From: Toxorhynchites rutilus septentrionalis
Taxonomy: Eukaryota > Arthropoda > Insecta > Diptera > Culicidae
DNA length: 64,000 nt
NCBI RefSeq assembly: GCF_029784135.1
Contig: NC_073745.1
Location: 48,484,116-48,548,115 of the forward strand
Reading direction: 5' to 3'
Shown here in pieces: positions 2,487 through 48,216 of the stretch. Position 1 is the first letter of the stretch; each line of letters starts with the position of its first letter. A program made the translations under genes and the position numbers. The notes under the pieces were generated by a model that did no database searches, had not been told where the DNA came from, and was given only the letters and a program-made list of their open reading frames with translations.

Positions 2487-4056
2487 TCAACGTAATGACC
2501 GAAGTTGTGTTGGTGTGTTGAGGAATGTCTCGATCTCTCGTTTCCTTTCCTCTGATAATTCCTCAGGTTGCTTTATTTCTGACAAAATAATTTCATCGCT
2601 GACTTTTTCAGATTTCGTTATACTTAGTTGAACATTGGTGTTTGTTTTTCTGAAATGATAGCAGAAAGCAACAATGGCAATGGCAAACATAATTAACGAT
2701 GTAATTCCAAACGATCCAAAAATATGAAGTTTCCATTTCAAAGAGTTGTTCTGTAGATGAAGAGTTTCTAATTTATCTCGCTGTTCCAGAGTTAAGTTTT
2801 GAAGATATTCCACTGGTGGTTGATCGATGGTACTAATTTCATGGACCAGCAATCCTGTTATAGGTTGGTAAATTTTACCTGGAACTGTGACTTCAAAGTT
2901 GGTGTAGAGCTCTCCATTGATACGAAGGTTACAGCTATCGAATTGTACCAAAAATGATCCATTAAGAAATTGATTCGAATTGCTACAGTTTGAGGAAATT
3001 TCTATTGAAGCGTCATTGATAAAGATAACCTCGTTGTTGATTCGTTGGATGAGTCCTTTTGAATAAACCTTTTCGTATATGCAGGTAGAATGTCTTCCTT
3101 TGATTAGCTGGTCAATGCAGGGTGTAGTAGATTCTAGATTGGTGCTGTCACAAATAAAATATTGTCCTTGTTCCTCACATGGTTGTTTTAATGCATAAAT
3201 ATGTGTAGCATTTCTTAGAATATGGTTCTGTTTGATAGTTATTCGTTTCTGGTTTTTGATAACAGAGTCAACGTAACTGTAATCGAATGTGACTGATGAT
3301 ACATGAGGAACCTTTAAGATATATATAATATGCGTATTGTTGATCGCAACTTGTGACTTTGATTGCGACAAGAGGTGTTCGAAGGAAGAAACATGTATGT
3401 CTTGATGATCCAAAAATGCAGCAATCGAGTTGAAGTCTTGAACTGATAACAGTTTACTACTAGGAATGCCATGCTTTGCTAATAAAACTGCTTCTTCAAT
3501 CGTTTCTATTTGACTTAGGAGCGAATCCAAATTCGAGGGAATAATCAGTTGATTTATCTCCATAGAGTGGTTTTTCAGTCTTTCCGACTCAAGAGTTAGT
3601 ACTTGGTTTGAGATATTCGATATTTCGAGTAAACGATTCCCAATTTTCTCGTTGATTAGAATTTGTTTGTTGTTCTGATGAATGAAGGAATTCAGTGAAG
3701 AGTTTATCAAACGAAGGTCATCAGCATCGGGATTCCCGGCGATCCACTTCCAAATGGTTCCTACGGTATCCCATCTCCGGTGTCTTCTGAGCGGTTTCAG
3801 CTTAAGATACGTTTCTTTTAATTTATAATTTTTTATTTCTATTAATTCATATAATGGGTTTACAAAAGGATTATTCTGTATTTCGTGATTGACTTTTTCA
3901 ATAGTAGTTCCAATTTGATCTATGTTTATAGGATGCATTATTCTCACATAGCCTGTTTTTAATTTAGCCACACCTAATGGTATAATGGCAAGCGGATTAT
4001 TTGTTAAGTCATGAATCTGGAGGTGTGATCGTGCTACTGACACGAACAGGGCCAAT
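2487..4056 (-). CDS. env: Env, insect errantivirus / baculovirus F-like fusion glycoprotein
   Basis: This open frame of about 522 residues has no in-frame ATG at its start. It is preceded by ttccattttcag|att, a good 3' splice site (AG at 4057-4058), which fits the known expression of errantivirus env from a spliced RNA. The N-terminus LALFVSVA is weakly signal-like. A basic furin-type site RRHRR lies at about residues 90-94, followed by a Trp/Gly-containing stretch (WDTVGTIWKWIAG) in the position of the fusion peptide of F-type proteins. There are several N-x-S/T sites and cysteines in the ectodomain. A hydrophobic segment at about 445-465 is followed by a 55-residue charged tail, as in a type I membrane protein. 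Unlike gag and pol, this frame is uninterrupted. Confidence 0.85.
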
Positions 4057-4068
4057 CTGAAAATGGAA

Positions 4069-7000
4069 TTAAAGATTTGGATTGATTCTTAAGTTTGTTT
4101 TATGAATTTTTCTTCCTTGTGTATCAATAACATACTTAGTATGATCTTCTCTGATTGTGATTTTTTTGTATCTACTTTTGCGTTTTGAAATATCATATGT
4201 CTTTTCAAAGGCTGTTGAGTTTGGAGTGTAACTTCTATAATGTTTCTCTGGTATTTTTTCTGCATTATTTTTGTGTATGTTTTGAATCCTTTCCAAATTC
4301 TTTTCTCTTGTTTTAAGGAAATCTTCTCTTGGAAGTGCGTTAACATTAATAGCTTGGTATACATTTCGAGGTGTGTCTTCTATTACTGAATGAACTGAAT
4401 TATTATACCTATGTGCGGTCAGTTGCATTAAATCATTGATTGAAATATCTGTATGTTCATGTCGTATGCATCTTGCAATTTCTCTAATTGTCGAATGGCA
4501 GCGTTCAACCTGACCATTCGTTTCAGACCTGTGGACAGGTGTCTTGAAAATTGTAATTCCGAGATTTTTAATTTGTTGTTCTATTGTATTAGACACAAAC
4601 GCACTTTCGTTGTCAATTACTATATTAGCTGGAACGTCCCAGTCATATATCAATTGCATTAGAACCTCTTTTACATTAACTATAGATTTTGATTTTATAG
4701 GTCTTATTTTGAGGAATTTGGAAAATTTGTCTAATGATGATATAAACAAGAAGTTTTGGTTGTACATAAATATGTCGATATGAACTATTTCAGCGGGATA
4801 TGTTGGTACAGGAGTTTTGACGGGTATAAATTTTTGAGGATTTCTGGCATATTTCTCGGTTTTGCAAATTTCACATGTCGAAACATATTGCCTTATCATT
4901 TTCTTCATTCCAGGGAAATAATATTTTTTTATCATTTGTGATGAATTTTCATTCGCATTCCTATGAGCAAATTCATGAATTTTTATAACTTTTTCTAATT
5001 GATCTTCTTCGTCATTTAAATCTTCAACTTGAATTTGTGAAAATCTAGCTCTAACTAGTTTTGGATTGTAATGTTCTTTATAAATCTCTTGGATAATAGC
5101 CATAACTAGTTCATCTGTCAATATCCCATTGAGAATGCCAGGGATTAAAAATTGTTGTAGTTTCCTAGTTAAAAACTCCTTTGAAAATTGAGGTTCTGTG
5201 AATTTATGTCTTTTGTATTTTTCAAATGGTATAATTAATTCATATGAGGGAGTATTTCCAATTTTGAAAATTAACTGATTCTTAAAAACATTGATTGGAG
5301 CTTCTGTACTCGGAATGTAGGATGAATCATCATCATCAGATGAATGTTGGGTAGGAGTAAGGGAGTAAATTTGAATACGGGAAAGCGCGTCGGCTACAAT
5401 GTTGGATTTGCCAGGCTTGTACAGCATTTCATGATCGTGTTCTTCGATAAAGGCCTTCCAACGTTTCAGCTTAGCGTTGTTATTTTTGGGGGATAGGGTG
5501 AAGGTTAAAGGTAAGTGATCCGTGTAAATTTTTATCTTAGAGCCATAAATGAAGTTGCGCAGGGTACTCAACGCCCATACGACTGCTAAGAGTTCCTTTT
5601 CATTGGTCGCATAATTTTCTTCCGATTTTGATAAAGTACGTGATATGAAAGTAATTGGCTTTTCCCCTTCTGGGAATTGTTGAGAAAGTACTGCACCTAA
5701 CGCTATATTGGATGCGTCAGTTGTAAGAATGAAGGGTTTTTCGAAGTCGGGAAATGCTAAGACATCTTCAGAAGAAAGAACGTCTTTTAAAGTTTGAAAT
5801 GCTTTTATGGCTTCTTCAAACTTTAAATCGAATTTAATTGGGAAATTTTTAGATTGCGTTTTAGGAATCTGGCGATGGCCATCTTCCCCTCTTAAGAATT
5901 TTGTTAAGGGTTTTGCAGTTTTTGCATAATTCTTAACAAAACGTCTGTAATACCCAGAGAGACCTAAGAATGCACGAAGATCTCTCAAATTCTTGGGCTG
6001 TGGATAATTCTGAATGCACTCTACCTTTTTCATATTCGGTTTTAGACCATTCTTTGAAATAATGAATCCTAAAAATTCCACTTCGGTTTTCAGAAATTCA
6101 GATTTATCTGGGTTAATTTTAAAATTAGCATTGCGCAAAACATCCAATATGATTTTCAAATTACCTAAATGCTCTTCAAGAGTTTTTCCAAAGATCTCTC
6201 GTCTCGTCAATGTAAACATAGCAAATTTTGCCAATATGTTCACGTAGAACATCATCCATTACCCTTTGGAAAATGCTGGGAGCATTTTTTAAACCAAATG
6301 GTAAACGAATAAACTCGTATTTCCCATTGTTTATTGAAAATGCAGTTTTTTCAATATCATTCTTTGACATTAGAATCTGGTGGAAACCAGACGCTAGGTC
6401 TAAAGTTGTAAAATAGGCATTGTGACCCAAATTTGCCAAAACAACCGAAGTATCGGGAATAGGATACCTATCGCTAATTGTCTTTGAATTCAGCTTACGG
6501 TAATCTATCACAATTCTATATTTTTTTCACCAGAAGCGTCAAGCTTCTTTGGAACAATCCATACGGGTGAGTTGTATGGAGATTTGGATGGTCTTATAAT
6601 ACCATCTTTAAGTAATTTATCTATTTCTTTGTTAACTTCATTTTTCAATGCTTGTGGGTAAGGGTAGGACTTAGAATAAATAGGGTTTTCGTCAGTTGTT
6701 CTAATTTTCGCTTCAATTTTAGTTGTAAAGGGAAGTTTTTTGTCCGGAGGCTGAAAAATATCCTGATATTTGTTCAACAAGGTCCATAATTTTGATTTTT
6801 GGTCAGTTTCCAAGTGATTATCTCGAACATGAATTTTGTTAACTTGTGTAAATGTATGCTGTAATAACGAAATAGTAAAACCTTTTGGAAAAATTATTTT
6901 TTCTGCGGAGGTATCAATAACAGCTTTAAGTTGTTTCAACGTGTCATGGCCTATAACGGCGTCAAATGTCTTCAATTCTTTCATATGATAAAAACGTACA

Positions 7001-7206
7001 TCAATATTGCTGTAAGGCCAAAAAAATGTACCGCGTGAAAATCTGTCAATTGTGATGTTACCTCCTACTGATGAAACGCTAAATGGTTTTTTCAATTTGT
7101 GAAATTTTTTTGTGTATTTCGGGTGAATATAATTTTTATTCGACCCAGTGTCAACTAATACTTTGATTGGTTTCAGTGGATTGCCGTAGTATGAAAAGTA
7201 CGGCAA
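4069..7206 (-). pseudogene. pol: Pol (protease, RT, RNase H, integrase), frame-broken
   Basis: The order is protease (VDTGSNKNYI near the start), RT (SPYNSPVWIVPKK; RLPFGLKNAPSIFQ; CYVYID), RNase H (LTTDASNIALGAVLSQ, NEKELLAVVWAL, YTDHLPL), then integrase with an HHCC zinc domain (HEFAH...CEICK) and the D, D, E residues in HIDIF, IDNESAF and NGQVERCHS. The RT is shifted to another frame between about 6.51 kb (a run of seven T at 6521-6527) and about 6.2 kb. The second break falls just after YID, so the catalytic YxDD box is not intact as read. The frame opens without an ATG directly after the gag stop (7215-7217), as expected for translation by frameshifting. Both breaks may be mutations or homopolymer/indel errors. 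Confidence 0.88.
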
Positions 7207-7214
7207 TGTAGAAT

Positions 7215-8493
7215 TTAACCTAAAAAATTAAACTCTGCATTGTCTTCATTAAAAGCTGTGTCCTCGTCATTATGTTGGTCATATTCTCTGATGTATCTCT
7301 CGTAAGAAGAATCATTGGATACACCATCCAAAATTTCTTCTTCATATTCTTCGGTGACATCGTCTTGTTTCTCATCTTCGGGTGGAGGATTATGATTAAT
7401 GTTAAACAATCTTGGTCGTTTGACAGCGTGTTGATGAGAGTTTAAGGGCCTGTTGCCATAATTTACCTGCCTTGTTTGAATGGACGGTTCCGGACGGATG
7501 GACAACATCCATCGGTTCCGGTCGATTTTGTTGCTGGAATGGATTTCTTGGTAGAGGTTGTGGATGATTTCTTTCTTGATACGCAGGACCATTGCGAATT
7601 GCTATTGGATTCCTCGGAGGAACTGGTGGCTTCTGATAATATTGGTTCCTAAAATTTTGATTATAGTTATTATATGGTAAATTTTTATTCATCTGTGGAA
7701 GTAAACGGGGGGCCGGTTTGGGTGGTAGACTAGGAATAAGATTCCTTGGTCTATTAGTTGGATCCGGAATTTTGTTACCTGTAATATTCTTTCTGTATTC
7801 AATATTCTGAAATGTAATGCAGTAGGAATAAGCATGAGCCAACGAATCTGGCTCGTAATTTTTTAGAAATCTGCCTACATCACCATCCAAACCACGGATA
7901 AATGCATCAATGGCTTTTCTGTTGTAAGTATAAATCATAGCCTTAGGATGTGAAAATCTTGAATCTGTTCTAATAGAATTTGCAATTAATGAAAGGATTT
8001 TATTAACATGATCATAATAGTTTTCGAGAGATTTTCCGTTTTGGAGACTATTCATTAACTGATAGTCCAAAGTTTCCAAATCACGTTTTTCACCGTAGTA
8101 CGTAATGAGTGTTTTTTTAATCATGTTCCAATTGATGTGAACGTTAGATGCAACAAGAGCATCGTTCGCCTCACCTTTTATTTTACGCCTAATTGATTTA
8201 CACACTACGTGAAACTTGTTTTTTTCGTCAATTGAACTTCTAGCATTCGGAGAGTAGAGCTGCACAATAGCTTCTGCATCTTGAATGAAAAAACCAAGTT
8301 CGTTGGGATCACCAGAAAAATTTGGTAATCCTTTCACCAAGTCAGGTATATCTTCGATGGAATCTGGGCTAACTGCAGATCCATCAGCATTTGTGAGATA
8401 CAGCGGAGGATCAGAAAAATCCTCTGCAACGGGTGTGATTGCTAATTCTAAAGCAGCCACACGGTTGATCAGATGTTGGATCTGTTCAGCCAT
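7215..8493 (-). pseudogene. gag: Gag, frameshifted near its C-terminus
   Basis: ATG at 8491-8493. The first about 330 residues read through in one frame: an N-terminal coiled region, a capsid-like part (LPNFSGDPNELGFFIQDAE, LDYQLMNSLQNGKSL) and a Pro/Asn-rich basic region. A frame change near 7.49-7.51 kb moves the rest into another frame, which ends in an acidic tail (DEKQDDVTEEYEEEILDG) at 7215. There is no CCHC zinc knuckle, which is normal for gypsy/errantivirus Gag. Homology is recognised by architecture and position. Confidence 0.8.
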
Positions 8494-9225
8494 TTTATTT
8501 AATTATTTTCTCACACTCACATTCACAACTTAAAATTAAATCAATCAATGACTCGCACGCACTCTAAAGAATTCTGTCAGAAATCTATCAATCAGATTAT
8601 CATTCAATCACACTTTATAAACCTAAATTCTCGGTTTTTCACACTCCTAATCGCATACAAAGCAACGCAACAAACGTTCAATTAATCTCACGCACTCCAA
8701 AGAAAGAATGTTTGGTTTCATTCACACTGTTTAGCTTTATAGTATAGTACAATTCGTAAATTAAAACTTTTTTACACTTCTTTTTGTGATATTTTGTAGT
8801 GGATTTTTGATACTTATTGATACACTTTATTATTTTTTTATTATTTTATTCACTTTGATTTGTTACTTTTCACTTTGTTAAAACTTGTTGATACGGTATA
8901 CTTACAGAATAAATCTGGACATCATTGGGGAACGCCCAACAATTGCGGGATTACTTCCGTCCGCTCCTTGTGGCTCTAACGCGAAGGATGTCGTCGGCTC
9001 GAGAACGCGTGTCCAGTTGATAAATCCTATTACTTCTCTACCAGCAAAGTGTTTCCAATCGTTCCAGTGTAGTGGTGGATTTCCCTTTTGTCCGGCGCTG
9101 CGGTGACTCGGGCACTCTGCTACACGTCTGCGTTGATGCGGTCGAATTGGGTTTCGGATTGTTTGAAATGTTCACTATACTTTAACGTTGTGAATCACTT
9201 TCAATTTCCTACTTACACTTCACTG
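8494..9225 (-). other. Untranslated leader of the errantivirus-like element
   Basis: Non-coding, strongly AT-rich in its gag-proximal part, between the primer-binding site and the gag ATG. It is expected to hold the packaging signal and the splice donor for env RNA. Neither can be pinpointed by eye. Confidence 0.6.
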
Positions 9226-9243
9226 GTCCCTATTCGGGCGCCA
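9226..9243 (-). promoter_or_regulatory. Primer-binding site, tRNA-Lys (UUU) type
   Basis: On the minus strand this reads TGGCGCCCGAATAGGGAC, 17 of 18 matching the 3' end of tRNA-Lys(UUU), with its first T being the last base of the 5' LTR. The match stops after 18 nt, the normal length. This contrasts with the LTR element at 27353. Confidence 0.88.
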
Positions 9244-22338: not shown

Positions 22339-23173
22339 CTACCTCGCAGCTTCCTCCAGTATCCACTTCAAATGTGACGAAACACGGGCGTATACGTCGG
22401 GAAACCCACGAGCGCAAGCCACTCCCCATGAAACGATACCATGCTGGGAGCCACCGTAGCTTAGGGGGCCACCAGAATTGCCTGCACATGTTCCCACACC
22501 TTCTGGGCTCAGCGTACAAATGATGTTGTCATGGACTCGAGCAACGTGAAGAGCATTGTGACGACTACGGCATTCGTCCACTGTGATGATGTCCAGTTGT
22601 ATCCATCGCATGATGTTCGGTATCGGGAGTCCAGGGAGCTGTGCGTTGGAAAATGATTGTACAATATTATTTAAATAAATCTTTTAATCCACTTCTTACC
22701 GAAGCCAATCCCCACCCAGATACTTGAGCGTTTCGAGCGGTGGTAATGAACTCTGTTCCCAATTGAACCGGTTGTACTGATGGAGAGAACATAATTGTCG
22801 TTGTAACTCGGATTAGCGATACATCATTGGCTAGGTTCGTTGCGTTGTACTCCGGATGACGAACGAAACGTTCCGACGAATAACTTTCGCCACCTTGGTT
22901 CAGATATCGCGTTCCGACCCATACAATCGTACTCCTGAGGGATCTCCCAGCGGTACAGTGCGCTGCGGTGAGAATCCAGCGACTGTTCAAAACTGACCCA
23001 CCACAGAAATGACTGTTCTGTTGCGAACGCAGCGATACCTGGTACGGAAACTGATCTTTCTCGGCGTCTGTGCCTCCAAAGATTCGATGTTGTCCCGCGG
23101 AGAACTCATGACGAATTATGGCGGCTCGTGTTGCAAACAAGCCGAAAACGAACAGGATAGTCGTGTGTTGCAT
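22339..23173 (-). CDS. Protease gene A: chymotrypsin-like S1 serine protease, two exons
   Basis: CDS is 22700-23173 joined to 22339-22638 on the minus strand: ATG at 23171-23173, 61-bp GT-AG intron, phase 0, stop TAG, 257 residues. It has a signal peptide (LFVFGLFATRAAI), activation cleavage after Arg30 (HR|IFGG), His72 (LTAAHC), Asp117 (ANDVSLI) and Ser213 (GNSGGPL), so the catalytic triad is present. The residue before the catalytic Ser is Asn212 rather than the nearly invariant Asp194 that salt-bridges the new N-terminus. The pocket has Gly207 (189) and Asp239 (226), the combination known from crab collagenase (brachyurin). It is a secreted protein, probably digestive. Three WGATAR sites lie upstream. 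The intron position is shared with genes B and C. Confidence 0.93.
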
Positions 23174-25889: not shown

Positions 25890-26231
25890 AACTCCGCCTG
25901 CGAATGACGGATCTCAATAATAGCATGTCCGAATAAGAACCTGAAATTATTGAGAAACCAGAGCAATGGGTCCAAAGCCCCAGAAAAGGAGGATGGTTGT
26001 AATAGCTGTTATCCATGGTTATTATGGAAAGGAAGTAATGGATAAACCCCTAAACCAAGGTGTGAAGCGACCGGTGCCGAGGGATGAATGGTAGGGGGGG
26101 GGTTTTAAACCTTGCCGTTAACGGAGCCTGTGGAGCACCAGGGCTCCCTCCACAGTATCGTCTGCCCTTGCTGCATTAAGCCGGTCACTGATGCAGTGGA
26201 CCTTCTTTACTGCGAGACTCGTGGGACTTCT

Positions 26232-27352
26232 ATGAATAATCCACATCCAAATGAACAAAACGAGCGGTCGAAAATAACGCAGAACACTAAGGTTCTGCAA
26301 ATAAATCTCCATCACGCTAAAGCAGCATCTAGCGTGCTGTCTAGGAGGTTTATTGAAGACGCTATGGATTTAGCTTTAATTCAAGAGCCTTGGGTCCACA
26401 AAGGAAGAATACTTGGTATTCATACTGGTTCATGCAAGCTATTCTACGACGACAAGCATGACTCCCCAAGAACTGCTGTTCTAATAAAAGCAAATATTAA
26501 ATGCTTTCCTATAACAGAGTTCATTCAAAGGGACATCGTCGCGATCAGAGTTGAGATACCAACCGCCAAGGGAAGATCCGACATAATAATTGCGTCGGCT
26601 TATTTCCCTGGTGACGTACCTGAGGCACCTCCCCAAGAGGTTGCGGCGTTCGTAAATTATTGCAGAGAAATCAAAAAAGACTTCATCATCGGCAGTGATG
26701 CCAATGCTCATCACACTTTGTGGGGTAGTACTGACATAAACAGTCGAGGTGACTGTCTTTTAGAATTTCTCTCTTCAAACAACATTGACATTACCAATAT
26801 AGGCAATGAACCAACGTTTATAAACGCTATCAGACAAGAAGTCCTGGACCTAACACTGTGCAGTCCGGTAATTTCTTCGAAAATACACAACTGGCACGTT
26901 TCGGAAGAGGCGTCTTTGTCTGATCACAGACACATTATCTTCGAATGGGATGGTGGCTTGACAGTACAGAGAGAATATCGTGATCCAAGAAAAACCAACT
27001 GGGAACGATATTCACTTGAACTCGAGTCAGAAACTCTTAACACAAGAATAAGGTCGATTCAACAGCTCGAATCAACTTCAAAAGAATTAAATGATACGAT
27101 AGCTTCTGTCTACAACAGTAATTGTCCACTTAAGAGAGTTTCTTCGACAAGAAACGTTCCATGGTGGAACAAAAGGCTCGAGCGGCTACGTAAAACAGCG
27201 CGGAAGCTGTTCAACAGAGCTAAAATTAATTCGGATTGGTCTCAATATAGGAGCGCCCTAACCGAATATAATAGAGAACTAAGACGATCTAAACGAAAAT
27301 CTTGGGTAAATAACTGCGAAAGCATTGAAAGTACCCCAATCGTTGCAAGACT
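26232..27352 (+). pseudogene. LOA element ORF, 5' half: AP-type endonuclease
   Basis: The first in-frame ATG is at 26232 (the open frame extends upstream to 26112 through a cysteine-containing stretch). Endonuclease motifs are VLQINLHHAKAAS, LIQEPWVHKGRI, FIIGSDANAHHTLWGS, LDLTLCSP and SLSDHRHIIFEW. A linker with WWNKRLERLRKTARKLFNRAK leads to the RT. The frame is cut after codon position 2 by the LTR element. The 3' half continues at 33354. Confidence 0.9.
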
Positions 27353-29165
27353 TGTAGCGCTGCACTGATTTTAGTATTGTTGAGCCCCTCGTTTCTATGA
27401 GTATGAACGTCAGTTTCAACACAACTCCCGTGTGTAGAATCTGAGTGTCTTTTCATATGTGTATGTTTCGGATGAACTGCAAAGCGAATGCTTTTCCCCT
27501 TTCCGATTTCACTGCTAGCTATAATTGAGTGCCAGATGTAACTCGACGGCTCAATTTAGCCAAGACACGTCTCAGAAAATGTCTTAGACACTCGTGTGAG
27601 TTTTTTCTAAGAAATTCACGTTTCCTTAACCGGGAGAGTTTTTGGCGGGTTTTCTTGGTATTTGAATTCGGAATCCGGCGAGCGACTCGATTTGAGCTGC
27701 GCTCGGGAGATTAAAGATAATCGCCCGAAAATGTTTGAAAAGTGGACAGATGTAGGCAAGGGGGTTGAGGGTAAGACTACGTATTATTAATATCGTTAAT
27801 AATTGCGTAGTTCCGGTCCTTTTGATCATTGCGCTGATCTGAGGACTTCGAAGAAATATTCTTCCATTTCAACTTGGCCCGTGGAAGAGGCAGCAGTGTG
27901 TAGTTCCGTTTGTGAAATCGCGAGTAGTTCAAAAGGTAGTTGGTACTTTTCACGCCATAGTTAGTGTAGCTCATTTGTGTTTTTTTTCTTTGTTTGTTCT
28001 TTTTCTTTTGTTTTTTAGTGAGCGCAGTTAGCTCAATTTTAAATTTAAAATTTACTCCTCCAGTGCGTAAAAGTTCAAATTCAATTGGAGGTAAGCATTG
28101 GCTTTTTTTTTTGCAAAATGTGGCTTTATGGTAAATGGCTTGTGTGTGCGCTTTTTTATGTGTTGTTTCTAGGTGGCACCACTTCTGACCCCACGGCTAC
28201 GTTGGAATTGGCCCTCTCCGTCAACACGAGGGCCCCAGCAAAATTCTCGCGCCCCCGGCGGCTCGTCATCAGCGGAAGTTCATCGCTCTTCGCCGCCGTA
28301 CCACGTAAATCCATGGTAGTGAGTACCCATTTTTATTTTCCTTTTAACATGCGCATGTAGGGAAATAATACTCAACACGCTAATAATGAGAGGTGCGCTA
28401 TAGAGCTCAAGAACAGAAGCAACACCACACAAAAGTACACACACAATAGCCATTGAATGTGAGTGAATGGAGAAGCCATAGCAGTATGACTAGAAAGTCA
28501 ACCGCCATTACCAAATCTTTTTGAATGTGCCTTTAGTGTAGTGAGCTAATTGCTATGTCTGCAAATCCAATGATTTGATGTTCGAGTCTGGAGTTAGATT
28601 AAATTTTTCTGTTATATTATAAATGAGTTGAATTAGTTTTTTTGTCGTCACGCTGTTGTCCTGTAATAAATGTTGAGTTGTTTTTTTTATAGTCTGAGTT
28701 ATTTACTGGCTAGCGGTGTGGCCTAAGTACCGGCAACTGATTTTTTGTTGTTGTAAAGGTTTTGAGTCTGCAAAGAGACTCCTTTTTGTTGCAGTTAGTT
28801 GAACATCCACTCCTACGCTCCGAAGCGAGCTTCGTTGTGGACAATATTTTCGCTCATTGGTCCAGTGAGGAAAATTTGCTGAAATTTGTGGTCTGGGGAT
28901 CGGCCCACGCACTCTCGGGCTTTAATCTTGTCCTCTGGACAAGCGGTGTTCGGGTTCACTTTACAGCGCAGCTCAAATTGAGAAACAAACCGGGTTTTGG
29001 GGGAAGAAAGAAAAACCCGCCCTGGGAGTTCGATTCTCATTGGCCGGGCAACCAAAAACACGGCGGTTGGCCTCCCTTACGGGAGTGGCGCTTAAGCCAA
29101 CTGCTTGACTGCGCAGAGCCCCGGTTAGGAAGGACTCACACGCCTAGAAGGCGTGTCGGGTTACA
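27353..29165 (+). repeat. 5' LTR of the LARD-like element
   Basis: 1813 bp. ORFs inside it are short and occur identically in both LTRs, so they are not evidence of genes. A possible short intron (ggag|gtaagcattgg to gtttctag|gtggc, about 28091-28172) is present. Near the end is a 7-bp stem hairpin, ACACGCC-tagaa-GGCGTGT (29138-29156). Confidence 0.95.
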
Positions 29166-29167
29166 TT

Positions 29168-29241
29168 TGGCGCCCAACGTGGGGCCCGAACCCACGACCC
29201 TGAGATTAAGAGTCTCATGCTCTACCGACTGAGCTAGCCGG
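29168..29241 (-). promoter_or_regulatory. Extended primer-binding site: near-complete reverse-complement copy of mature tRNA-Lys(CUU)
   Basis: Starting 2 bp after the LTR, 29168-29185 reads TGGCGCCCAACGTGGGGC, a perfect 18-nt site for tRNA-Lys(CUU). The match then continues. On the minus strand the T-arm, anticodon arm (ACTCTTAATCT, anticodon CUU), D-arm and acceptor stem follow back to about tRNA nucleotide 3. TGG corresponds to the CCA end, which is added after transcription in animals, so the source is mature tRNA and not a gene. The only departure from the canonical sequence is 29186, tRNA position 58 (A to G on the tRNA strand). Next to it 29241 onward forms an 11-bp inverted repeat with the D-arm copy. 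Confidence 0.85.
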
Positions 29242-31478
29242 TAGAGCATCAAGCTATGTATCTTTTTTAAAGAGACAAAAAAATAACAAAAAATACCTAC
29301 GGGGAAATTAATATTGAATCCCAACGATTGAGGAATCGTCAATTTTTTAGACGATTGCCTGAAATGCTAGGTTGAGAGCTCGCGATGACTTCAAATTAAG
29401 TAGCGGAGCTCATGAAGAAAATGAATGAATCGGAGCTATGACCTGTACAAAGTAGTGGTCATGTCACCGCGAAGCCTAAAGCGAGCCCCGATGATGACTT
29501 CTTGAACATCAGTAGTGAGCACCGTGAAGAAAAGAGGAAGGGAGCGCCTTAGCACTTAGAGCAGTCTGAAGGAGAAGCGACTAGAGTCCCGTTCGGTTGG
29601 TTGATTCCAGAAAACAAGCTATGAAACCGAAGTGACGAAGAAATCCCAACGAGAAACGAGAAAAGAACGAGTCGAGTTTGACCTTCGGAACCGAGAATGG
29701 GAAAAATCAACTCGGATTGTAGATAAAATTGTAAATATTAGTATTAGATTAGTAGTTAAGTAAATCCTAGTTCCCTATCACTTAGTTTCTAGTATTAGTC
29801 TTAAATATAGTTAGGTTTGTTTTTTAATTAAATAATTTTAATCACTCACGATTTTTCCTTTGTTCATCTTTTAATTTATACTCGATTCCGTTCTTTGTAG
29901 TTGTTGTTTTTTGTAGTGTTGTTGTTTTCGAAGAAATTCGTAGTTTATTAAGTGTTCAACTATTTTGGTAGTCATCTCTAGTTCCTAAAATAATGGTAGA
30001 AATTAGTATTTAGTTATAAATTTTATACTTAATGTTTCATAGTTATCGTTGTGATTCCTCCGTCCGGTTTTGTCAGTAGTCCTCCAGCTCGTATCCTATC
30101 CAGTTCCTTCCCTTGAGATTATTCCGTGTTCTTACTTATGTCCTTCCAGCCATCCTGTCCAATCCGCACAATCCTCGTATTTAGTCAAATATCGTATCCG
30201 CTTCCTGTATTTTTTTTCTTTCCTGTATTGTTTTTCCAGTGTGTCATCAGCAATCATCATGTCCGATTTATTTGTAGTTTCCTTGTTTTTGCTGCGATTA
30301 CTGTTCTATCGGTTGTCCTTCATTCCTGATTCTAGTATTCGTGTTCGTCTAGTGGTTGTCCTCCCGATCCTGCTCCATCTTTGTCAGATTCGAATGGGTT
30401 TTATCCTTTCGTCTGAGTCTGCTTGTTAATTATCATTGTTTATCGCGTTCAGTCGGTGATGCTGCTTGTTGTCGAACCTAACCTGGGGAAGAAACAAAGA
30501 GAAAAACTTCACATCCAATAATTGGAACGATATGTAATTTATACTTTCCTTGTTTTCGGTGATGCGTCCAGTCCTCGCCGCATTCCAAATATCCGTTTTA
30601 CGGAATCATCCGTGGGGAAATTATAAAATAAATACTCACGACACTGCAAAATCAACGCACTGGTTTGTTTACATTTCACATACTGATTAGTTGGCAATGG
30701 AGTGAGTGAATTGTGTGAGTGTATTGAATGAACGAATGAATTTTTGTCGCTTTTATGCAAGGGGTGAGTGAATGTTTAATTGATTGATTGATATATTTGG
30801 TGATTTTTTTAGAATTTTTATTTGTTTTTTTTGTGTCATTTTAGCGTTGGCATGAGCCATCGGTAGAAAATGACCGGGAAAAGAATTTAAGATTTTTCTT
30901 CGACCGGATGCTTGCAATCTTTGGTTATGTCCGAGGTAGCGTCCGTGTGCGAAGAAAAATCGGTTTATTTTAAGGTGATTATTGTTTCATTCCTTAATTT
31001 CTCGGATATAGTTCTGGGGTCGGAATGACGATACTCACCAGGTTACTTTTTCGACGGAGGTCGATAGTCAAGTTATTTGTACATCTTCAGTGTAACTTCT
31101 ACCAATGAGAAGTGGAAGATGTATAGTTTAGTTATAGTTTAGTTAAATCTAAGTATGTTTTTCTTCATTCAGATGTGAATAAGTTTGCCAACTAATAGTA
31201 GTTTTTGAAAGATTAAACGAATTGTATTCTTCGGTTGTTCAGTTCAGTAAATCTCCATAATACCACTTTTTTTCGGTGGGCGTTAGGAGTCTACTTTTGC
31301 TGAATATTCACACAACATTTCGCTGGAGACCGGAGCGGTGAAGCGTTGATGGTCAGTTACAGACAGATCCACAGATCTGATACTGGAAATAGAGGAAGAG
31401 TCAGATTCTGACGATGACAACATATGACCCCGATAATGTTCGTGAACAATTTAGTAGAAGGAAGACTTCAGTTTCGCC
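29242..31478 (+). other. Non-coding internal region of the LARD-like element
   Basis: No frame resembles gag or pol. The longest open frame (about 119 codons near 30070) has Ser/Val/Leu-biased composition and no recognisable motif. The 5' part (29400-29720) is purine-rich with gaagaa-like words. The middle is T-rich. It probably carries packaging and priming signals only. Confidence 0.7.
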
Positions 31479-31518
31479 TTCGAAAATTTGATTGGTTTAG
31501 GCCAATCAAATTTTCGAA
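31479..31518. repeat. Perfect 17-bp inverted repeat before the 3' LTR
   Basis: TTCGAAAATTTGATTGG, 6-nt loop, then its exact complement, ending 17 bp before the 3' LTR. It is placed next to the expected polypurine tract (only a weak gcagggaa is seen). In RNA it would form a strong hairpin. Confidence 0.85.
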
Positions 31519-31535
31519 AATTTAGCAGGGAATGA

Positions 31536-33349
31536 TGTAGCGCTGCACTGATTTTAGTATTGTTGAGCCCCTCGTTTCTATGAGTATGAACGTCAGTTTC
31601 AACACAACTCCCGTGTGTAGAATCTGAGTGTCTTTTCATATGTGTATGTTTCGGATGAACTGCAAAGCGAATGCTTTTCCCCTTTCCGATTTCACTGCTA
31701 GCTATAATTGAGTGCCAGATGTAACTCGACGGCTCAATTTAGCCAAGACACGTCTCAGAAAATGTCTTAGACACTCGTGTGAGTTTTTTCTAAGAAATTC
31801 ACGTTTCCTTAACCGGGAGAGTTTTTGGCGGGTTTTCTTGGTATTTGAATTCGGAATCCGGCGAGCGACTCGATTTGAGCTGCGCTCGGGAGATTAAAGA
31901 TAATCGCCCGAAAATGTTTGAAAAGTGGACAGATGTAGGCAAGGGGGTTGAGGGTAAGACTACGTATTATTAATATCGTTAATAATTGCGTAGTTCCGGT
32001 CCTTTTGATCATTGCGCTGATCTGAGGACTTCGAAGAAATATTCTTCCATTTCAACTTGGCCCGTGGAAGAGGCAGCAGTGTGTAGTTCCGTTTGTGAAA
32101 TCGCGAGTAGTTCAAAAGGTAGTTGGTACTTTTCACGCCATAGTTAGTGTAGCTCATTTGTGTTTTTTTTTTCTTTGTTTGTTCTTTTTCTTTTGTTTTT
32201 TAGTGAGCGCAGTTAGCTCAATTTTAAATTTAAAATTTACTCCTCCAGTGCGTAAAAGTTCAAATTCAATTGGAGGTAAGCATTGGCTTTTTTTTGCAAA
32301 ATGTGGCTTTATGGTAAATGGCTTGTGTGTGCGCTTTTTTATGTGTTGTTTCTAGGTGGCACCACTTCTGACCCCACGGCTACGTTGGAATTGGCCCTCT
32401 CCGTCAACACGAGGGCCCCAGCAAAATTCTCGCGCCCCCGGCGGCTCGTCATCAGCGGAAGTTCATCGCTCTTCGCCGCCGTACCACGTAAATCCATGGT
32501 AGTGAGTACCCATTTTTATTTTCCTTTTAACATGCGCATGTAGGGAAATAATACTTAACACGCTAATAATGAGAGGTGCGCTATAGAGCTCAAGAACAGA
32601 AGCAACACCACACAAAAGTACACACACAATAGCTATTGAATGTGAGTGAATGGAGAAGCCATAGCAGTATGACTAGAAAGTCAACCGCCATTACCAAATC
32701 TTTTTGAATGTGCCTTTAGTGTAGTGAGCTAATTGCTATGTCTGCAAATCCAATGATTTGATGTTCGAGTCTGGAGTTAGATTAAATTTTTCTGTTATAT
32801 TATAAATGAGTTGAATTAGTTTTTTTGTCGTCACGCTGTTGTCCTGTAATAAATGTTGAGTTGTTTTTTTTTATAGTCTGAGTTATTTACTGGCTAGCGG
32901 TGTGGCCTAAGTACCGGCAACTGATTTTTTGTTGTTGTAAAGGTTTTGAGTCTGCAAAGAGACTCCTTTTTGTTGCAGTTAGTTGAACATCCACTCCTAC
33001 GCTCCGAAGCGAGCTTCGTTGTGGACAATATTTTCGCTCATTGGTCCAGTGAGGAAAATTTGCTGAAATTTGTGGTCTGGGGATCGGCCCACGCACTCTC
33101 GGGCTTTAATCTTGTCCTCTGGACAAGCGGTGTTCGGGTTCACTTTACAGCGCAGCTCAAATTGAGAAACAAACCGGGTTTTGGGGGAAGAAAGAAAAAC
33201 CCGCCCTGGGAGTTCGATTCTCATTGGCCGGGCAACCAAAAACACGGCGGTTGGCCTCCCTTACGGGAGTGGCGCTTAAGCCAACTGCTTGACTGCGCAG
33301 AGCCCCGGTTAGGAAGGACTCACACGCCTAGAAGGCGTGTCGGGTTACA
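31536..33349 (+). repeat. 3' LTR of the LARD-like element
   Basis: 1814 bp, nearly identical to 27353-29165, followed by GACT and the resumed LOA reading frame. Confidence 0.95.
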
Positions 33350-33353
33350 GACT

Positions 33354-35958
33354 AAGTAAGACTCTTGCAAAAGGCCACTCGAACGGGCTAGGTTCCCTCA
33401 AAAAGGACGACGGTTCGTTCACAAAATCTCCCTCAGAAGTATTAGACTTACTGATGAAAACTCACTTCCCGGGATCTACATCGGTTCATTCTGATACCAG
33501 TCCTAACTACAACCGCGACATGAAATGCTCTCGAAGGAATTCTCAAAGTGCAAAGGATGTCGCAAAGATAGTTGCTGGAATGGTTTTCACGAGGGCCAGA
33601 GTAGAAAGCGCGGTGAGATCCTTTCAACCGTACAAATCCGCAGGTGCAGATGGAATTTTTCCAGCCCTGATTCAAAAAGGAGAATCTAAGCTGATTCCAT
33701 CTCTAATCGAGATTTTTAAGGCAAGTCTGATACTAGAGCACATTCCTTCCACATGGAGACTCGTTAAAGTGGTCTTCATTCCAAAAGCTGGGAAACGTGA
33801 TAAATCACTCCCAAAATCATTCAGACCAATTAGTTTATCATCAATACTGCTGAAAACTATGGAAAAAGTATTATATGAATACATAAAGTCTGTATTCATG
33901 TCCAAATGCCCTTTATCTAAATACCAGTTTGCCTATCAATCAGGCAAATCCACAGTCACAGCGTTACACACGCTTGTGACTAAAATTGAAAAATCTCTTT
34001 CGTCAAAAGAAACTGCATTATGTGCGTTTCTTGATATCGAAGGGGCTTTCGACAATGCTTCCTATGTATCAATGGCACAGGCTATGAGAAGAAGACATTT
34101 CGATGACTGCATAGTCGAATGGATCAAAGGCATGCTCACAAATAGACAAATCACCTCGGAGCTGGGTGGGTCATCGACATCTGTGATTGCAACGAAAGGT
34201 TGCCCACAAGGAGGGGTTCTATCACCTCTACTTTGGTCACTGGTGGTTGACGACCTTCTGATTAGTTTGGAGGCGAATGGTTTCGAAACCGTGGGTTTTG
34301 CTGATGATTTAGTCATAATGGTACGTGGCAAATTCGACGATGTGGTATCGAGTAGGATGCAGATGGCCTTAAACCTCACACAATCATGGTGTATCAAAGA
34401 AGGTCTGAGCATAAATCCCTCAAAAACAACAATTGTTCCTTTCACCAAAAAGAAGAAACTGCATCTGCAGACTCTAAATCTTGGAGGAGAGGAAATAAAA
34501 TTCAGCGTTTCAGTGAAATATCTAGGCGTAATCCTAGATGCTAAACTAAACTGGAACGCACACTTAGATGCAATTATCAGTAAGGCCAACATTGCCCTAT
34601 GGGCATGTTCTAAAATGATAGGTAGAACATGGGGCCTGAAACCAAAAATGGTTATGTGGGTCTATACAGCAATTGGGCGGCCTAGGATAACATATGCCTC
34701 ATTAGTATGGTGGCCAAAGACTAAGGAGACTGTAACTACAAAAAAGCGAAACAAACTCCAGCGACTGGCATGCGTTGCTGTAACAGGAGCAATGCGAAGC
34801 ACACCCTCAAAGGCATTGGAGGTTATCCTTCACTTGTTACCTTTGGGTCAACATGTTCAGCTGGAGGCTAATAGAAGCGCTCTAAAGCTAAAAAGATATA
34901 AAAAAATATTAGACGGGGACAAAACTGGTCATTTGAGCATCCTGAATCTCTTACCCGTTGGACCAACCTCAGAGATGAACAGCGATTGGATGGAGCCAAG
35001 GACCAATTATGACATTCCATACACAGTGATCGAACTTTCTCGTTCAGTATGGGATGAGGGTGGTCCCGATGTTCGTAATGGTTCAATCCTGTTCTATACC
35101 GATGGGTCGAAAATGGGTAACAGAACAGGTGCTGGAGTGTATGGTCCCAGAATAAAAATTTCTGTAGCTATGGGGAACTGGCCAACAGTTTTCCAGACAG
35201 AAGTAGCTGCAATAATAGAATGTATAAATGTCTGCCTTAAAAGAAATTATAGACATGCTAACATTTGTATCTTCTCAGACAGTCAAGCAGCACTTAAAGC
35301 CCTCAATGCTTTCAAGTGCTATTCAAAAATTGTCTGGGAATGCATTTGCCTTTTACGACAACTGGGTCAGAGAAGCTCGGTACAACTGTACTGGATTCCT
35401 GGCCATTGCGGTATAGAAGGAAATGAACAAGCAGATGAACTCGCAAGACGCGGCTCAAGCTCACCCTTCACTGGTCCAGAACCATTCTGTGGAATTTCTG
35501 AATGTGTGTTGAAGAGTGAGCTGAAGAAATGGGAAGACCGGGAAGTAATGGGCAACTGGATGGCTGTACAACTCAACCAGTCAAAAAAATTTATCACGCC
35601 GAGTATTAAAATTACTCAACAATTGCTGAGTCTTAATAAGAAAGACTTCAGCACATTCACTGGTCTTATAACAGGACACTGTCCGAGTAAATACCATCTC
35701 AAAAACATAGGTTTAGTGCAAGATGATATTTGTCGCTTTTGTAATGCCGAAAGCGAAACCTCGGAACATTTGCTCTGCAAATGCGGAGCACTAACAAGAC
35801 GCAGACTTCAACACCTTGATAAGGCTATTCTGGAGCCCAAGGAAGTTTGGTCTGTGTCGCTGATCAGGACTATAAATTTTATCAAACAGATTATTCCTGA
35901 TTGGCACCTATCTCGCTATAGCTTTCAGTCTACTTCTTCATCAATAAGCAGTAGATAA
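33354..35958 (+). pseudogene. LOA element ORF, 3' half: reverse transcriptase and RNase H
   Basis: Open over about 868 codons. RT blocks: KSAGADGIFPALIQKG, PKSFRPISLSSILLKTMEK, YQFAYQSGKSTVTALH, LCAFLDIEGAFDNASY, KGCPQGGVLSPLLWSLVV and the catalytic GFADDLVIM. RNase H: ILFYTDGSKMGNRTGAGV, FQTEVAAIIE, FSDSQAALKAL and WIPGHCGIEGNEQADELA supply the D, E, D, D residues. A C-terminal CRFCNAESETSEHLLCKC motif follows. All catalytic residues are present. Only the insertion after 27352 separates it from its endonuclease half. Confidence 0.93.
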
Positions 35959-36299: not shown

Positions 36300-36890
36300 C
36301 GAATTCTGGAGTGTAAAAATGCATGGGAGTATAAAAGTACTGCCAAGATCTGCAATGCTGATTTTCCTAACTCATTGGTTTCGGAATCTGTGTTCGGAAA
36401 ACACATTCCGATTTGCAAAAATGCAAGCGAGTATAAAAGTACTCGCAGCTTGCATTTCATTTGAATGCCAATTTCCCACGTTCCATGGTTTTGAAATCCG
36501 TGTTAGGGATATAATCTGATTTGCAGAAACGCAAACGAGTTAAAAGTACCCACAACTTGCATCTATTTTGCAATGCCAATTTCCCCAGGCTTAATATGGT
36601 TTTGAAATCTGTGTTAGGGAAACATTCCAATTTGCAAAAACGCAAACGAGTACAAAAGTACTCGTTGATTGCATCTAATTTGCAATGCCAGTTTCCCTAG
36701 GCTCCATGGTTTTGAAGTCTGTGTTAGGGAAGCATTCTGATTTGCAAAAACGCAAACGAGTACAAAAGTACCCGCTGCTTGCATCTATTTTGCAGTGCCG
36801 ATCTCCCCAGGCTCCATGGTTTTGGAATCTGTGTTAGGAAAACATTCCGATTTGAAAAAACGCAAACGAGTACAAAAGCTGCGCAATCAT
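36300..36890. repeat. Tandem array, about 110-bp unit, five to six copies
   Basis: The word atttgcaaaaacgcaaacga recurs at 36411, 36519, 36630, 36740 and 36850 (steps of 108-111 bp), with a weaker unit at about 36310. Units also share catggttttgaaatctgtgt. Short ORFs in it follow the repeat and are not genes. The array lies immediately downstream of the minus-strand core promoter at 36892-36926. Confidence 0.85.
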
Positions 36891-36891
36891 T

Positions 36892-37178
36892 ACTGAGTGG
36901 ATTTCCGAGCGACACTCGCTTTTATACCGATTGGTGTGTTTTCAATACCCTGTTTTGCAAGCAATTTTAAGGCTATTGAAACAAGTTTTTGGATCAAAAA
37001 GTAACAAGTATAGAACGCGTAGACATTTTATCTTTCGAATGAAGTGTTTATCATATCATTTCGTTCAGTTGTTTAGGAGCTATTAACACTCAAAATCTCG
37101 GTCTCCGGCGTAACGCTTTCGTTTTCGAAACTTTGATTTTACACCCCGGTATAGAAATGAAAGACGTAGTCCTACGTC
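36892..37178 (-). promoter_or_regulatory. Repeat-borne pol II core promoter module, copy 1
   Basis: On the minus strand TATAAAAG (36919-36926) is followed about 31 bp later by an arthropod initiator ACTCAGT (36892-36898). Upstream sequence to the palindrome GACGTAGTCCTACGTC (37163-37178) is homologous to 48313-48530. Shared words are ttgatccaaaaac, gtttcaatagc, agataaaatgtcta and tttcatttctata. Initiation would run leftward into the 110-bp array. It resembles promoters of highly expressed small genes. Identity is unknown. Confidence 0.6.
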
Positions 37179-42056: not shown

Positions 42057-42889
42057 ATGTTGCGTACGGTGTCGATAGTCGTATTCGCCCTCATCGGTTC
42101 TACCCTAGCCGGAGCGCTTCCGAACAGAATCTATCTCGGAAGAGGTCGCATCGTTGGAGGATCCAATGCCATCGAAGGACAATTCCCCTTCCAGGTATCA
42201 CTGCGTTCCTCGGATGGCATCCACTTCTGCGGTGGAACGATCATCGATAATCGATGGATTCTGACAGCTGCGCACTGTACCATTGGAAGAGCACCTACAC
42301 AAATGGTGGTGGTAGCTGGAACGCTCCTTCTCAGCTCTGGTGGAACAACTCATCAGGTTCTTCGGGTTGTTTACCATCCTCATTTTAGTCTCACCAGATG
42401 GGAAAATGACGTTTCACTGGTTGAATTGACTACCCCGATTGTTTTCACCAACAATGTGGGACCCGTTGAGCTGGAGGCGAGTTTCGTGAACGAGGCGTCT
42501 GGCGCTCAAGCAGCAGGATGGGGCCTTACTTCTGTAAGTAGAATTCTTCAATTGGCGCAATAACCCTACTGATGCCATTTCTTGACTCAACACAGAATCC
42601 TGGATCCGCCTCGAACCATTTGCAGTGGATTGAAGCAACTATCATCTCACTGGCCGCATGTCGTGAAGCGTACAGCCCTGACAACGCTGACCACGTTTAT
42701 GACAACACGATCTGCACGTCAAGCCCGGTTGGAATCGGAATATGTTCCGGGGATGCCGGTGGACCGCTGATGCTCGGCGGGCGTCAACAGGGCATTGCGT
42801 CATGGGGTGTTCCATGCGCCGTGGGTTATCCCGATGTGTTCGCTCGGGTGTCCTCACACAGAAGCTGGATTCTGGAGACCGTCGCATGA
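42057..42889 (+). CDS. Protease gene B: S1-family serine protease homologue, Ser195 replaced by Ala
   Basis: CDS is 42057-42533 joined to 42596-42889, with a 62-bp GT-AG intron in phase 0 at the same place as in genes A and C. It encodes 256 residues. Signal peptide IVVFALIGSTLAGA; activation site after Arg31 (GR|IVGG). His73 (LTAAHC) and Asp118 (ENDVSLV) are kept, but the GDSGGP box reads GDAGGP with Ala213 at the nucleophile position. The pocket has Gly207 (189) and Asp239 (226). The fold, disulphide cysteines and processing site are conserved, so it is probably made and secreted but cannot hydrolyse peptides by the normal mechanism. Such homologues often act as cofactors or decoys, but no role is visible here. 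Confidence 0.92.
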
Positions 42890-47370: not shown

Positions 47371-48216
47371 ATGTTACATTCAACCTCGATTGTCGTGCTG
47401 TTTCTGCTCGGTGCTGCTTTTGCATCAGCACTCCCAGGCGGACTCAACCAGCGGATTGTTGGAGGAAAGTATGCCTTCAAAGGCCAGTTTCCGTATCAGG
47501 CGTCATTGCGATGGGCCAACGATGACCTTTTTTGTGGTGCTGTGATCATTAACGAAAAGTGGGTTTTGACGGCTGCATCCTGTGTACCTGGACCACTTAT
47601 TCCTAGTATCCGCGTTGTGGTTGGAGCACTGCAGCTAAGAGGGGATGGAACAACACACCTAATATACGATATAATTCCTCATCCTGGGTTCAACCCGGTA
47701 ACGCACGAAAATGATATTGCACTCATTAAGCTAGTTGAACCAATCAAGTTTTCGGATAGTGTCAGCAGTATCAAGCTGGAGAAAGATTTCTCCAACGAAA
47801 ACAAAGCTGGGGCTCAAGCTTCCGGATGGGGCTATACAACGGTAAACTAATCGATTTGAGCGTTTGTCATCATTCGATGTTTATACTAAGTGCTATATTT
47901 CTTTCCACAGTATGGTGGACCCAAATCAAGCCTTTTACAATGGGTTGAGCTGAACATCCTCACGCTGGAGGAATGTCGCCAAAAACATACCGCGGAGAAC
48001 GCAAGGTTTGTTTTCAACAGCACTATCTGTACTTTGAGTGACGTTGGCACCGGAATGTGCTATGGTGATGCTGGTGGCCCCTTGACACACAACGGAAAAC
48101 TACAGGGAATTGTATCGTGGGCAATACCTTGTGCGAAAGGTTACCCCGACGTGTTCATGCGTGTTTCGTCGTATTATTCATGGATAACGGAAGTAACGGG
48201 TTTAGATTTTGACTAA
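47371..48216 (+). CDS. Protease gene C: S1-family serine protease homologue lacking His57 and Ser195
   Basis: CDS is 47371-47841 joined to 47911-48216, with a 69-bp GT-AG intron in phase 0. It encodes 258 residues. Signal peptide IVVLFLLGAAFASA; activation site after Arg28 (QR|IVGG). The catalytic His is Ser70 (LTAASC), Asp115 is kept (ENDIALI), and the nucleophile is Ala211 (GDAGGP). Gly205 (189) and Asp237 (226) match genes A and B. The conserved WG at 215-216 is WA. Two of three triad residues are gone, yet the reading frame, splice sites and cysteines are intact. This argues for a retained non-enzymatic function rather than decay. Closest relative in the window is gene B, 5 kb upstream on the same strand. 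Confidence 0.92.

Follow-up and report, generated by a model that had tools for sequence, protein, structure and literature searches.

Why would an LTR retrotransposon carry, directly after its 5' LTR, an antisense copy of its primer tRNA that extends far beyond an 18-nt primer-binding site (PBS)? The question is raised by an element of Toxorhynchites rutilus septentrionalis found in a 64,000-nt stretch of contig C2 (the whole stretch is hereafter called the window). Our analysis rests on one assembly; L-numbers are loci and C1 to C3 are contigs of this same assembly, and all genome copy counts are lower bounds. We propose that the locus is probably a fossil of aberrant reverse transcription in an Osvaldo-like, tRNA-Lys-primed LTR retrotransposon. 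The element occupies positions 27353–33349 of the window and presents the following features:

27349–27352, plus strand: left copy of the TSD GACT (LTR-end comparison)
27353–29165, plus strand: 5' LTR (TGTA...TACA), 1813 bp (repeat search and LTR alignment)
29168–29185, plus strand: 18-nt PBS, complement of tRNA-Lys(CTT) nt 76–59, CCA included
29186, plus strand: C opposite nt 58 (G58 in the tRNA sense; A58 in gene L026)
29187–29241, plus strand: remaining antisense tRNA copy, from nt 57 to nt 3
29217–29227, plus strand: 5' arm of the putative snap-back inverted repeat (copies tRNA nt 27–17)
29239–29249, plus strand: 3' arm of the inverted repeat, exceeding the tRNA match by 29242–29249, the presumed product of snap-back synthesis
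29249–29250, plus strand: junction to the 3' noncoding module (comparison with L019, L020, L021 and L087)
29250–31535, plus strand: 3' noncoding module, up to the 3' LTR (alignment to relatives)
31536–33349, plus strand: 3' LTR, 1814 bp
33350–33353: right copy of the TSD GACT (LTR-end comparison)

Aligned to each other, the two LTRs show 2 substitutions, plus 5 gap columns spread over 3 sites. The 5' LTR ends with TTACA, followed by TT and then by the antisense tRNA copy from nt 76. Elements of the Osvaldo lineage have LTRs of 997–2055 bp according to the text of their description (2137 bp for cqgypsy_1 in its table) and TSDs of mostly 4 bp (PMC3286476). The window element shares these traits, with LTRs of 1813 and 1814 bp, a 4-bp TSD and a partner, L087, that carries gag, RT, RNase H and integrase domains; by LTR length, TSD and the domains of its partner it can be regarded as Osvaldo-like. 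The ORF list contains no ORF longer than 119 aa lying wholly between the LTRs, and the element resembles LARD-like elements in having two LTRs and a PBS without coding capacity (as judged from ORF lengths in this list). It sits within a Lian-like non-LTR element, whose endonuclease part (26112–27368) and RT/RNase H part (33337–35958) lie on either side. Just after the Lian-like element, positions 36377–36925 contain five tandem copies of a 110-nt unit (60–88% alike to the reference copy). The window further contains three trypsin-like coding stretches (22667–23173, 42057–42563 and 47371–47850) and a histone 3' UTR stem-loop at 390–435 (Rfam RF00032; 34.6 bits for a cut-off of 34).

An earlier note, made from the letters of the window, had described the match to tRNA-Lys(CTT) as continuing past the 18-nt site to nt 3 and departing from the tRNA at a single base, 29186, which corresponds to nt 58. 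We checked this match against two references, a general tRNA-Lys(CTT) sequence and the species' intact gene L026 (C2:68589651) with CCA added, and both observations hold: 29168–29241 is identical to nt 76 to 3 at 73 of 74 positions, and A58G is the one difference between the window copy and L026. The Rfam tRNA model matches this copy on the minus strand (45.2 bits; E = 2.1e-6 for the whole window), which is its single match in the window and lies outside the LTRs. ARAGORN predicted 0 tRNA genes in the window; the copy lacks nt 1–2, so no complete cloverleaf is formed. A chance origin of the copy is ruled out by this identity and by the CCA being continuous with the copy. The window also harbors an errantivirus-like element on the minus strand (2487–9243), with Gypsy env, pol and gag domains and an 18-nt PBS for tRNA-Lys(TTT). 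As had been pointed out, this PBS (9226–9243) stops after 18 nt: it reads TGGCGCCCGAATAGGGAC, followed by a C where a tRNA copy is expected to have a T (by eye).

The bases following the tRNA copy had been described as the exact inverse of its D-arm portion, and this was confirmed. The inverse repeat between 29217–29227 and 29239–29249 is exact over 11 bp, with an 11-nt loop, and is completed by the 8 nt at 29242–29249 together with the preceding CGG. These 8 nt are the part of the 3' arm that lies beyond the tRNA match (4^-8 = 1.5e-5). As another source of this sense piece we considered tRNA-Lys(UUU), for which the match seemed to extend over 13 nt with a general Lys-UUU sequence. This source was dropped because the 18 tRNA-Lys(TTT) sequences of the species that were examined all read GAGCGTT (18/18) and cannot give GAGCAT. 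The snap-back suggested in the earlier note fits the repeat better than this one tested alternative.

Is the tRNA copy a general property of the family? We searched the genome for the LTR end and PBS and scored 40 of 312 candidates, among which four reach the PBS: the window element, L057, L058 and L085 (which coincides with L025 and L089). The two ordinary copies seen, L057 and L058, present a PBS of 15 nt (TGGCGCCCAACGTGG) followed by TTTTT, without any tRNA copy. We looked for relatives in IMG/VR and GTDB contigs and found 0 matches to a 30-base pattern in each. One IMG/VR match to the 18-nt PBS was judged to be a coincidence, since its surroundings are GC-rich and the PBS is not followed by any match to the tRNA.

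Similar fusions between an LTR end and a CCA-bearing tRNA copy were identified at three other loci, for a total of four with the window element. L089 belongs to the LTR family of the window element and contains tRNA nt 76–55 with G58, followed by an inverted LTR start; with LTR family and G58 in common, these two copies may not be independent. L090 (C3:309669000-309672500) is a 454-bp insert with the TSD GTAT, in which an inverted LTR end, an LTR end, the PBS, a complete tRNA (nt 76–1) and again the LTR end follow one another, such that both outer ends are U5 ends (TGTAACCC...GGGTTACA). Its LTR is related to that of the window element (79% identity over ~150 bp), and its tRNA copy retains A58 and differs by G59A and C63A instead. 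In the corresponding genome search, in which 40 of 241 candidates were scored, 33 of the 45 matches listed are LTR copies whose start is the query base equivalent to tRNA nt 8, at AGCCGGGC. Judging from these match extents, the last switch in L090 seems to lie in a stretch common to the tRNA copy and the LTR. Finally, L086 (C1:123994800-124004700) belongs to another LTR family and contains tRNA nt 76–4 with G58, plus A9T and G10T; tRNA nt 9 and 10 can also be modified. The 187 bases upstream of this copy have five other copies of at least 95% identity among 20 matches, with ends 0–2 bases from the base before TGG, and the three examined copies of this LTR have the appearance of 3' LTRs, CAACA being followed by unrelated DNA. 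Because L057 and L058 lack the tRNA copy and other elements present LTR-end/tRNA fusions, the read-through of a mature, CCA-bearing primer tRNA is well supported.

We further analyzed nt 58 across the genome. All 33 candidates for tRNA-Lys(CTT) were scored, and nine share 95% identity or more with the query. CCA stands straight after an LTR end in three of these nine copies: the window (G58), L090 (A58) and L086 (G58). Four gene-like loci (L026, L031, L032 and L033) carry A58; with L026 as the reference, L031, L032 and L033 show 2, 3 and 4 further differences. Among them, L033 is changed in its anticodon as well and is called Arg by ARAGORN, and L031 is flanked by tRNA genes for Asn and Pro. 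Of the 24 weaker matches, 21 have loci, and ARAGORN assigns 20 of these 21 to tRNA-Lys(TTT). A single intact tRNA-Lys(CTT) gene with A58 was thus found in 0.9 Gb, versus 20 Lys(TTT) matches, in a search that may miss copies.

The two remaining loci, L027 and L028, are otherwise identical to L026 over nt 1–73 and are both called genes by ARAGORN. L027 (C3:325160368 region) is a complete copy of nt 1–73 with G58 and without CCA that adjoins an LTR end from yet another family; 0.9 kb away, this LTR end recurs in inverted orientation with a 14-nt PBS at the same place. Because it adjoins an LTR end whose inverted partner has a PBS at the same place, L027 looks like a product of reverse transcription rather than a gene. 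L028 (C3:228270833) carries U58, also without CCA. The tRNA and the trailer AGTAAACT are all that L027 and L028 have in common, and they may not be independent. The earlier note had named a G58 gene with the same flanks as the case that would speak against its reading: no such gene was found, as the flanks of L027 are different, and the species' intact gene has A58.

Overall, nt 58 is changed in three of the four CCA-bearing copies (L089 counted) and in both L027 and L028, and in none of the four gene-like loci. It constitutes the sole difference in three copies of at least 71 nt (window, L027 and L028). The changes are to G (window, L089, L086 and L027) or to T (L028), and nt 59 is G. The normal stop of plus-strand synthesis, m1A58, is reported in retroviral primer tRNAs, and synthesis continues past A58 with unmodified tRNA in vitro or in cells with a mutated m1A58 methylase (PMC13191261). 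Reverse transcriptases that pass m1A leave misreads, and a G as 3' neighbor is associated with low C, leaving G and T (PMC4787781). The observed changes are consistent with such misreading of m1A, with the qualification that the published data concern other reverse transcriptases, not gypsy-type ones, and that a G58 template would give the same G. The earlier claim that reverse transcriptase passed m1A58 with misincorporation is therefore retained in part: the read-through stands, and misincorporation at m1A58 is likely, though unproven.

What the earlier note could not see is the nature of the sequence that the tRNA copy joins. Using a 141-base query, we obtained 17 genome matches, and the whole query matched at the window locus only. 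The sequence from 29249 on (TCAAGCTATGTATC...) was found in five other places among these matches, and in three of them (L019, L020 and L021) the 3' module directly follows the apparent end of the pol ORF. In L087, which contains L019, the interval from PBS to junction spans ~5.5 kb and contains three ORFs with gag, RT/RNase H and integrase domains. The window element lacks these ~5.5 kb (the gag-pol of L087) and has kept the 2.29-kb 3' noncoding module, which is 97.2% identical to that of L087 and 97.9% identical to that of L091 over most of the module. The tRNA copy and its snap-back end appear to go with the loss of gag-pol, because this end joins sequence lying just downstream of pol in autonomous relatives. 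In two further places (L018/L088 and L022/L093), a sequence change occurs no more than ~5 nt away from this point in the 3' module, with differing upstream sequence; the start of the module could be a hotspot for breakpoints or a boundary between modules.

Several relatives were inspected individually. L093 (C3:19052500-19062400; contains L022) is a rearranged family member in which the first 143 bp of the LTR are followed by an inverted 5' leader, ~50 nt of other sequence and the 3' module, whose homology begins within a few bases of the window-element junction. L088 (C3:33043500-33052500; contains L018) is a family copy with a 15-nt PBS and a gag-zinc-knuckle-like stretch (by eye); its 3' module is reduced to roughly the initial 100 bp, a piece with 100% identity to L087 across 103 bp. 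Inspection by eye of L091, L092 and L093 showed no LTR-PBS where their 5' ends are predicted.

Together, these observations suggest the following course of events. Synthesis of plus-strand strong-stop DNA would have proceeded across U5 and the 18 nt of the tRNA that serve as primer. The enzyme would not have stopped at m1A58; it would have placed a C opposite this base and copied the tRNA to nt 3. The 3' end of the product (...CCGG) would then have folded back on the complementary CCG located 11 nt upstream and been extended by 8 nt. Such a 3' end would be unfit for the normal second strand transfer and would have been joined just 3' of pol, deleting gag-pol, and the resulting 6-kb product would have been integrated by the usual integrase. 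The order of these steps, the presence of m1A at nt 58 of the template and a single event for both the tRNA copy and the deletion are what we infer. An over-extended 3' end might meet several fates: snap-back and joining to the 3' module in the window element, joining to an inverted LTR start in L089, and return into the LTR through common bases in L090. The driver might be a weak stop, caused by a hypomethylated primer or by a PBS of 14–15 nt that leaves the strong-stop end unpaired. More speculatively, with the 15-nt PBS seen in L057 and L058, an 18-nt strong-stop DNA would find no partner for its last 3 nt, which might favor such accidents. The locus had been presented as a possible trace of an unusual priming mechanism; it is better understood as plus-strand synthesis and strand transfer gone wrong.

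Several points weigh against this course of events. The window element is a single copy, so two events could lie behind the tRNA copy and the gag-pol deletion, and only four CCA-bearing fusions were seen. It is possible that an older deletion of gag-pol at a module boundary was followed by over-extended strong-stop DNA in the deleted lineage. L018/L088 and L022/L093 lend some weight to such a history, since they change near the same point and the place of the junction may have its own reasons. However, among the 17 genome matches no locus has the junction but lacks the tRNA copy, and the junction is directly adjacent to the snap-back end; we consider two separate events unlikely.

The change at nt 58 may also have another origin, in which a tRNA-Lys(CTT) variant with an encoded G58, unable to carry m1A58, served as primer and was read through without error. 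G58 is found in three of the four CCA-bearing copies, L027 and L028 have the sequence of L026 apart from nt 58, and a template without m1A existed if either of them is transcribed. Moreover, copying in vitro goes beyond A58 when the tRNA is unmodified, and HIV-1 is slowed by a tRNA-Lys3 with the A58U mutation (PMC13191261). However, L027 resembles a product of reverse transcription and its 3' flank, as far as examined, lacks a run of four T, L090 reads through with A58, and A58 is present in all four gene-like loci, three of which carry other changes. A58 is also part of the pol III B box. A G58 primer is accordingly quite unlikely in our view. The A58 of L090, together with the Culex element cqgypsy_1, described as identical to its tRNAs (PMC3286476), indicates as well that read-through need not mark nt 58.

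Alternatively, a tRNA-Lys gene might have been captured as DNA beside the LTR, by recombination or insertion: tRNA-Lys(CTT) loci exist in the genome, and L027 is a CCA-less copy joined to an LTR end. The window copy, however, contains CCA, which is absent from genes, begins exactly at the PBS, lacks the flanks of the census loci and has its difference at the modified base; the arrangement recurs in L090 and L086, and gene flanks were found in none of the four CCA-bearing copies. These features make DNA capture extremely improbable. The extended PBS could also be a selected, inherited aid to primer binding or strand transfer, similar to an enlarged version of the short over-extension sequences known in lentiviruses and spumaviruses (PMC13191261). 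However, the full extension was found once, L057 and L058 present a 15-nt PBS only, the element lacks gag-pol and the other fusions occur in different contexts. Nothing suggests that the extended PBS is functional, and selection for it is very improbable. Accidental read-through of the primer tRNA is thus the reading that we retain.

The closest precedent that we have seen is cqgypsy_1 of Culex quinquefasciatus, whose 149-bp PBS region is described as identical to tRNA-Lys and tRNA-Glu placed head to head, both with CCA (PMC3286476). Both elements are Osvaldo-like, with long LTRs, a tRNA-Lys primer and a tRNA-Lys with CCA after the 5' LTR (PMC3286476). The head-to-head arrangement and the PBS suggest that the tRNA-Lys of cqgypsy_1 would be antisense, as in the window element. 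Its authors suggested that mature tRNAs entered after reverse transcription and likened the structure to Twin SINEs; the sections of their account considered here mention neither m1A58 nor a snap-back, and describe a second tRNA and a 26-nt repeat of the LTR end on both sides, with no change reported at nt 58 (PMC3286476). In contrast, the window element presents one tRNA, an 8-nt snap-back, A58G and the loss of gag-pol, with an 11-nt sense repeat and no LTR end after it. L090, like cqgypsy_1, repeats the LTR end after the tRNA. Relative to cqgypsy_1, the new elements are the change at a modified base, the comparison with ordinary relatives, the snap-back, the link with gag-pol loss and the further fusions in the same genome.

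Other known systems are more distant. In HIV-1, over-extended strong-stop DNA made on unmodified or hypomethylated tRNA-Lys3 involves the same step of the cycle and the same stop signal, but consists of DNA products from in-vitro reactions or mutant cells, associated with reduced infectivity, whereas the window presents an integrated genomic product (PMC13191261). The primer over-extension sequences of lentiviruses and spumaviruses are likewise tRNA complements beyond the 18-nt PBS, but they are a consensus feature ending near nt 54–55, whereas the extension in the window is of 56 nt and found in one copy (PMC13191261). It is not shared across the family, being absent from both ordinary copies. 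Helenus TRIMs are also non-autonomous LTR elements with tRNA-like sequence, and the animal ones have 4-bp TSDs; however, their tRNA-like sequence is described as lying within the LTRs, without complementarity to the PBS (PMC10886601).

Among the matches listed in the open-access literature, we found no description of genomic copies with a mark of m1A58, which does not prove that none exists. To our knowledge, most of what is known of the m1A58 stop comes from biochemistry and cell lines. Primer-tRNA copies integrated in a genome, several of them changed at the modified base, would show that this stop fails in nature and that the failed products integrate. They would allow tRNA modification and strand-transfer errors to be read from genomes, and would point to a mechanism behind the tRNA dimer found in Culex cqgypsy_1. 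In such genomes, counts of tRNA genes may include reverse-transcribed copies, as with L027, which ARAGORN calls a gene. Finally, these copies would suggest an origin for some of the LTR elements that lack gag-pol and for some of the tiny ones.
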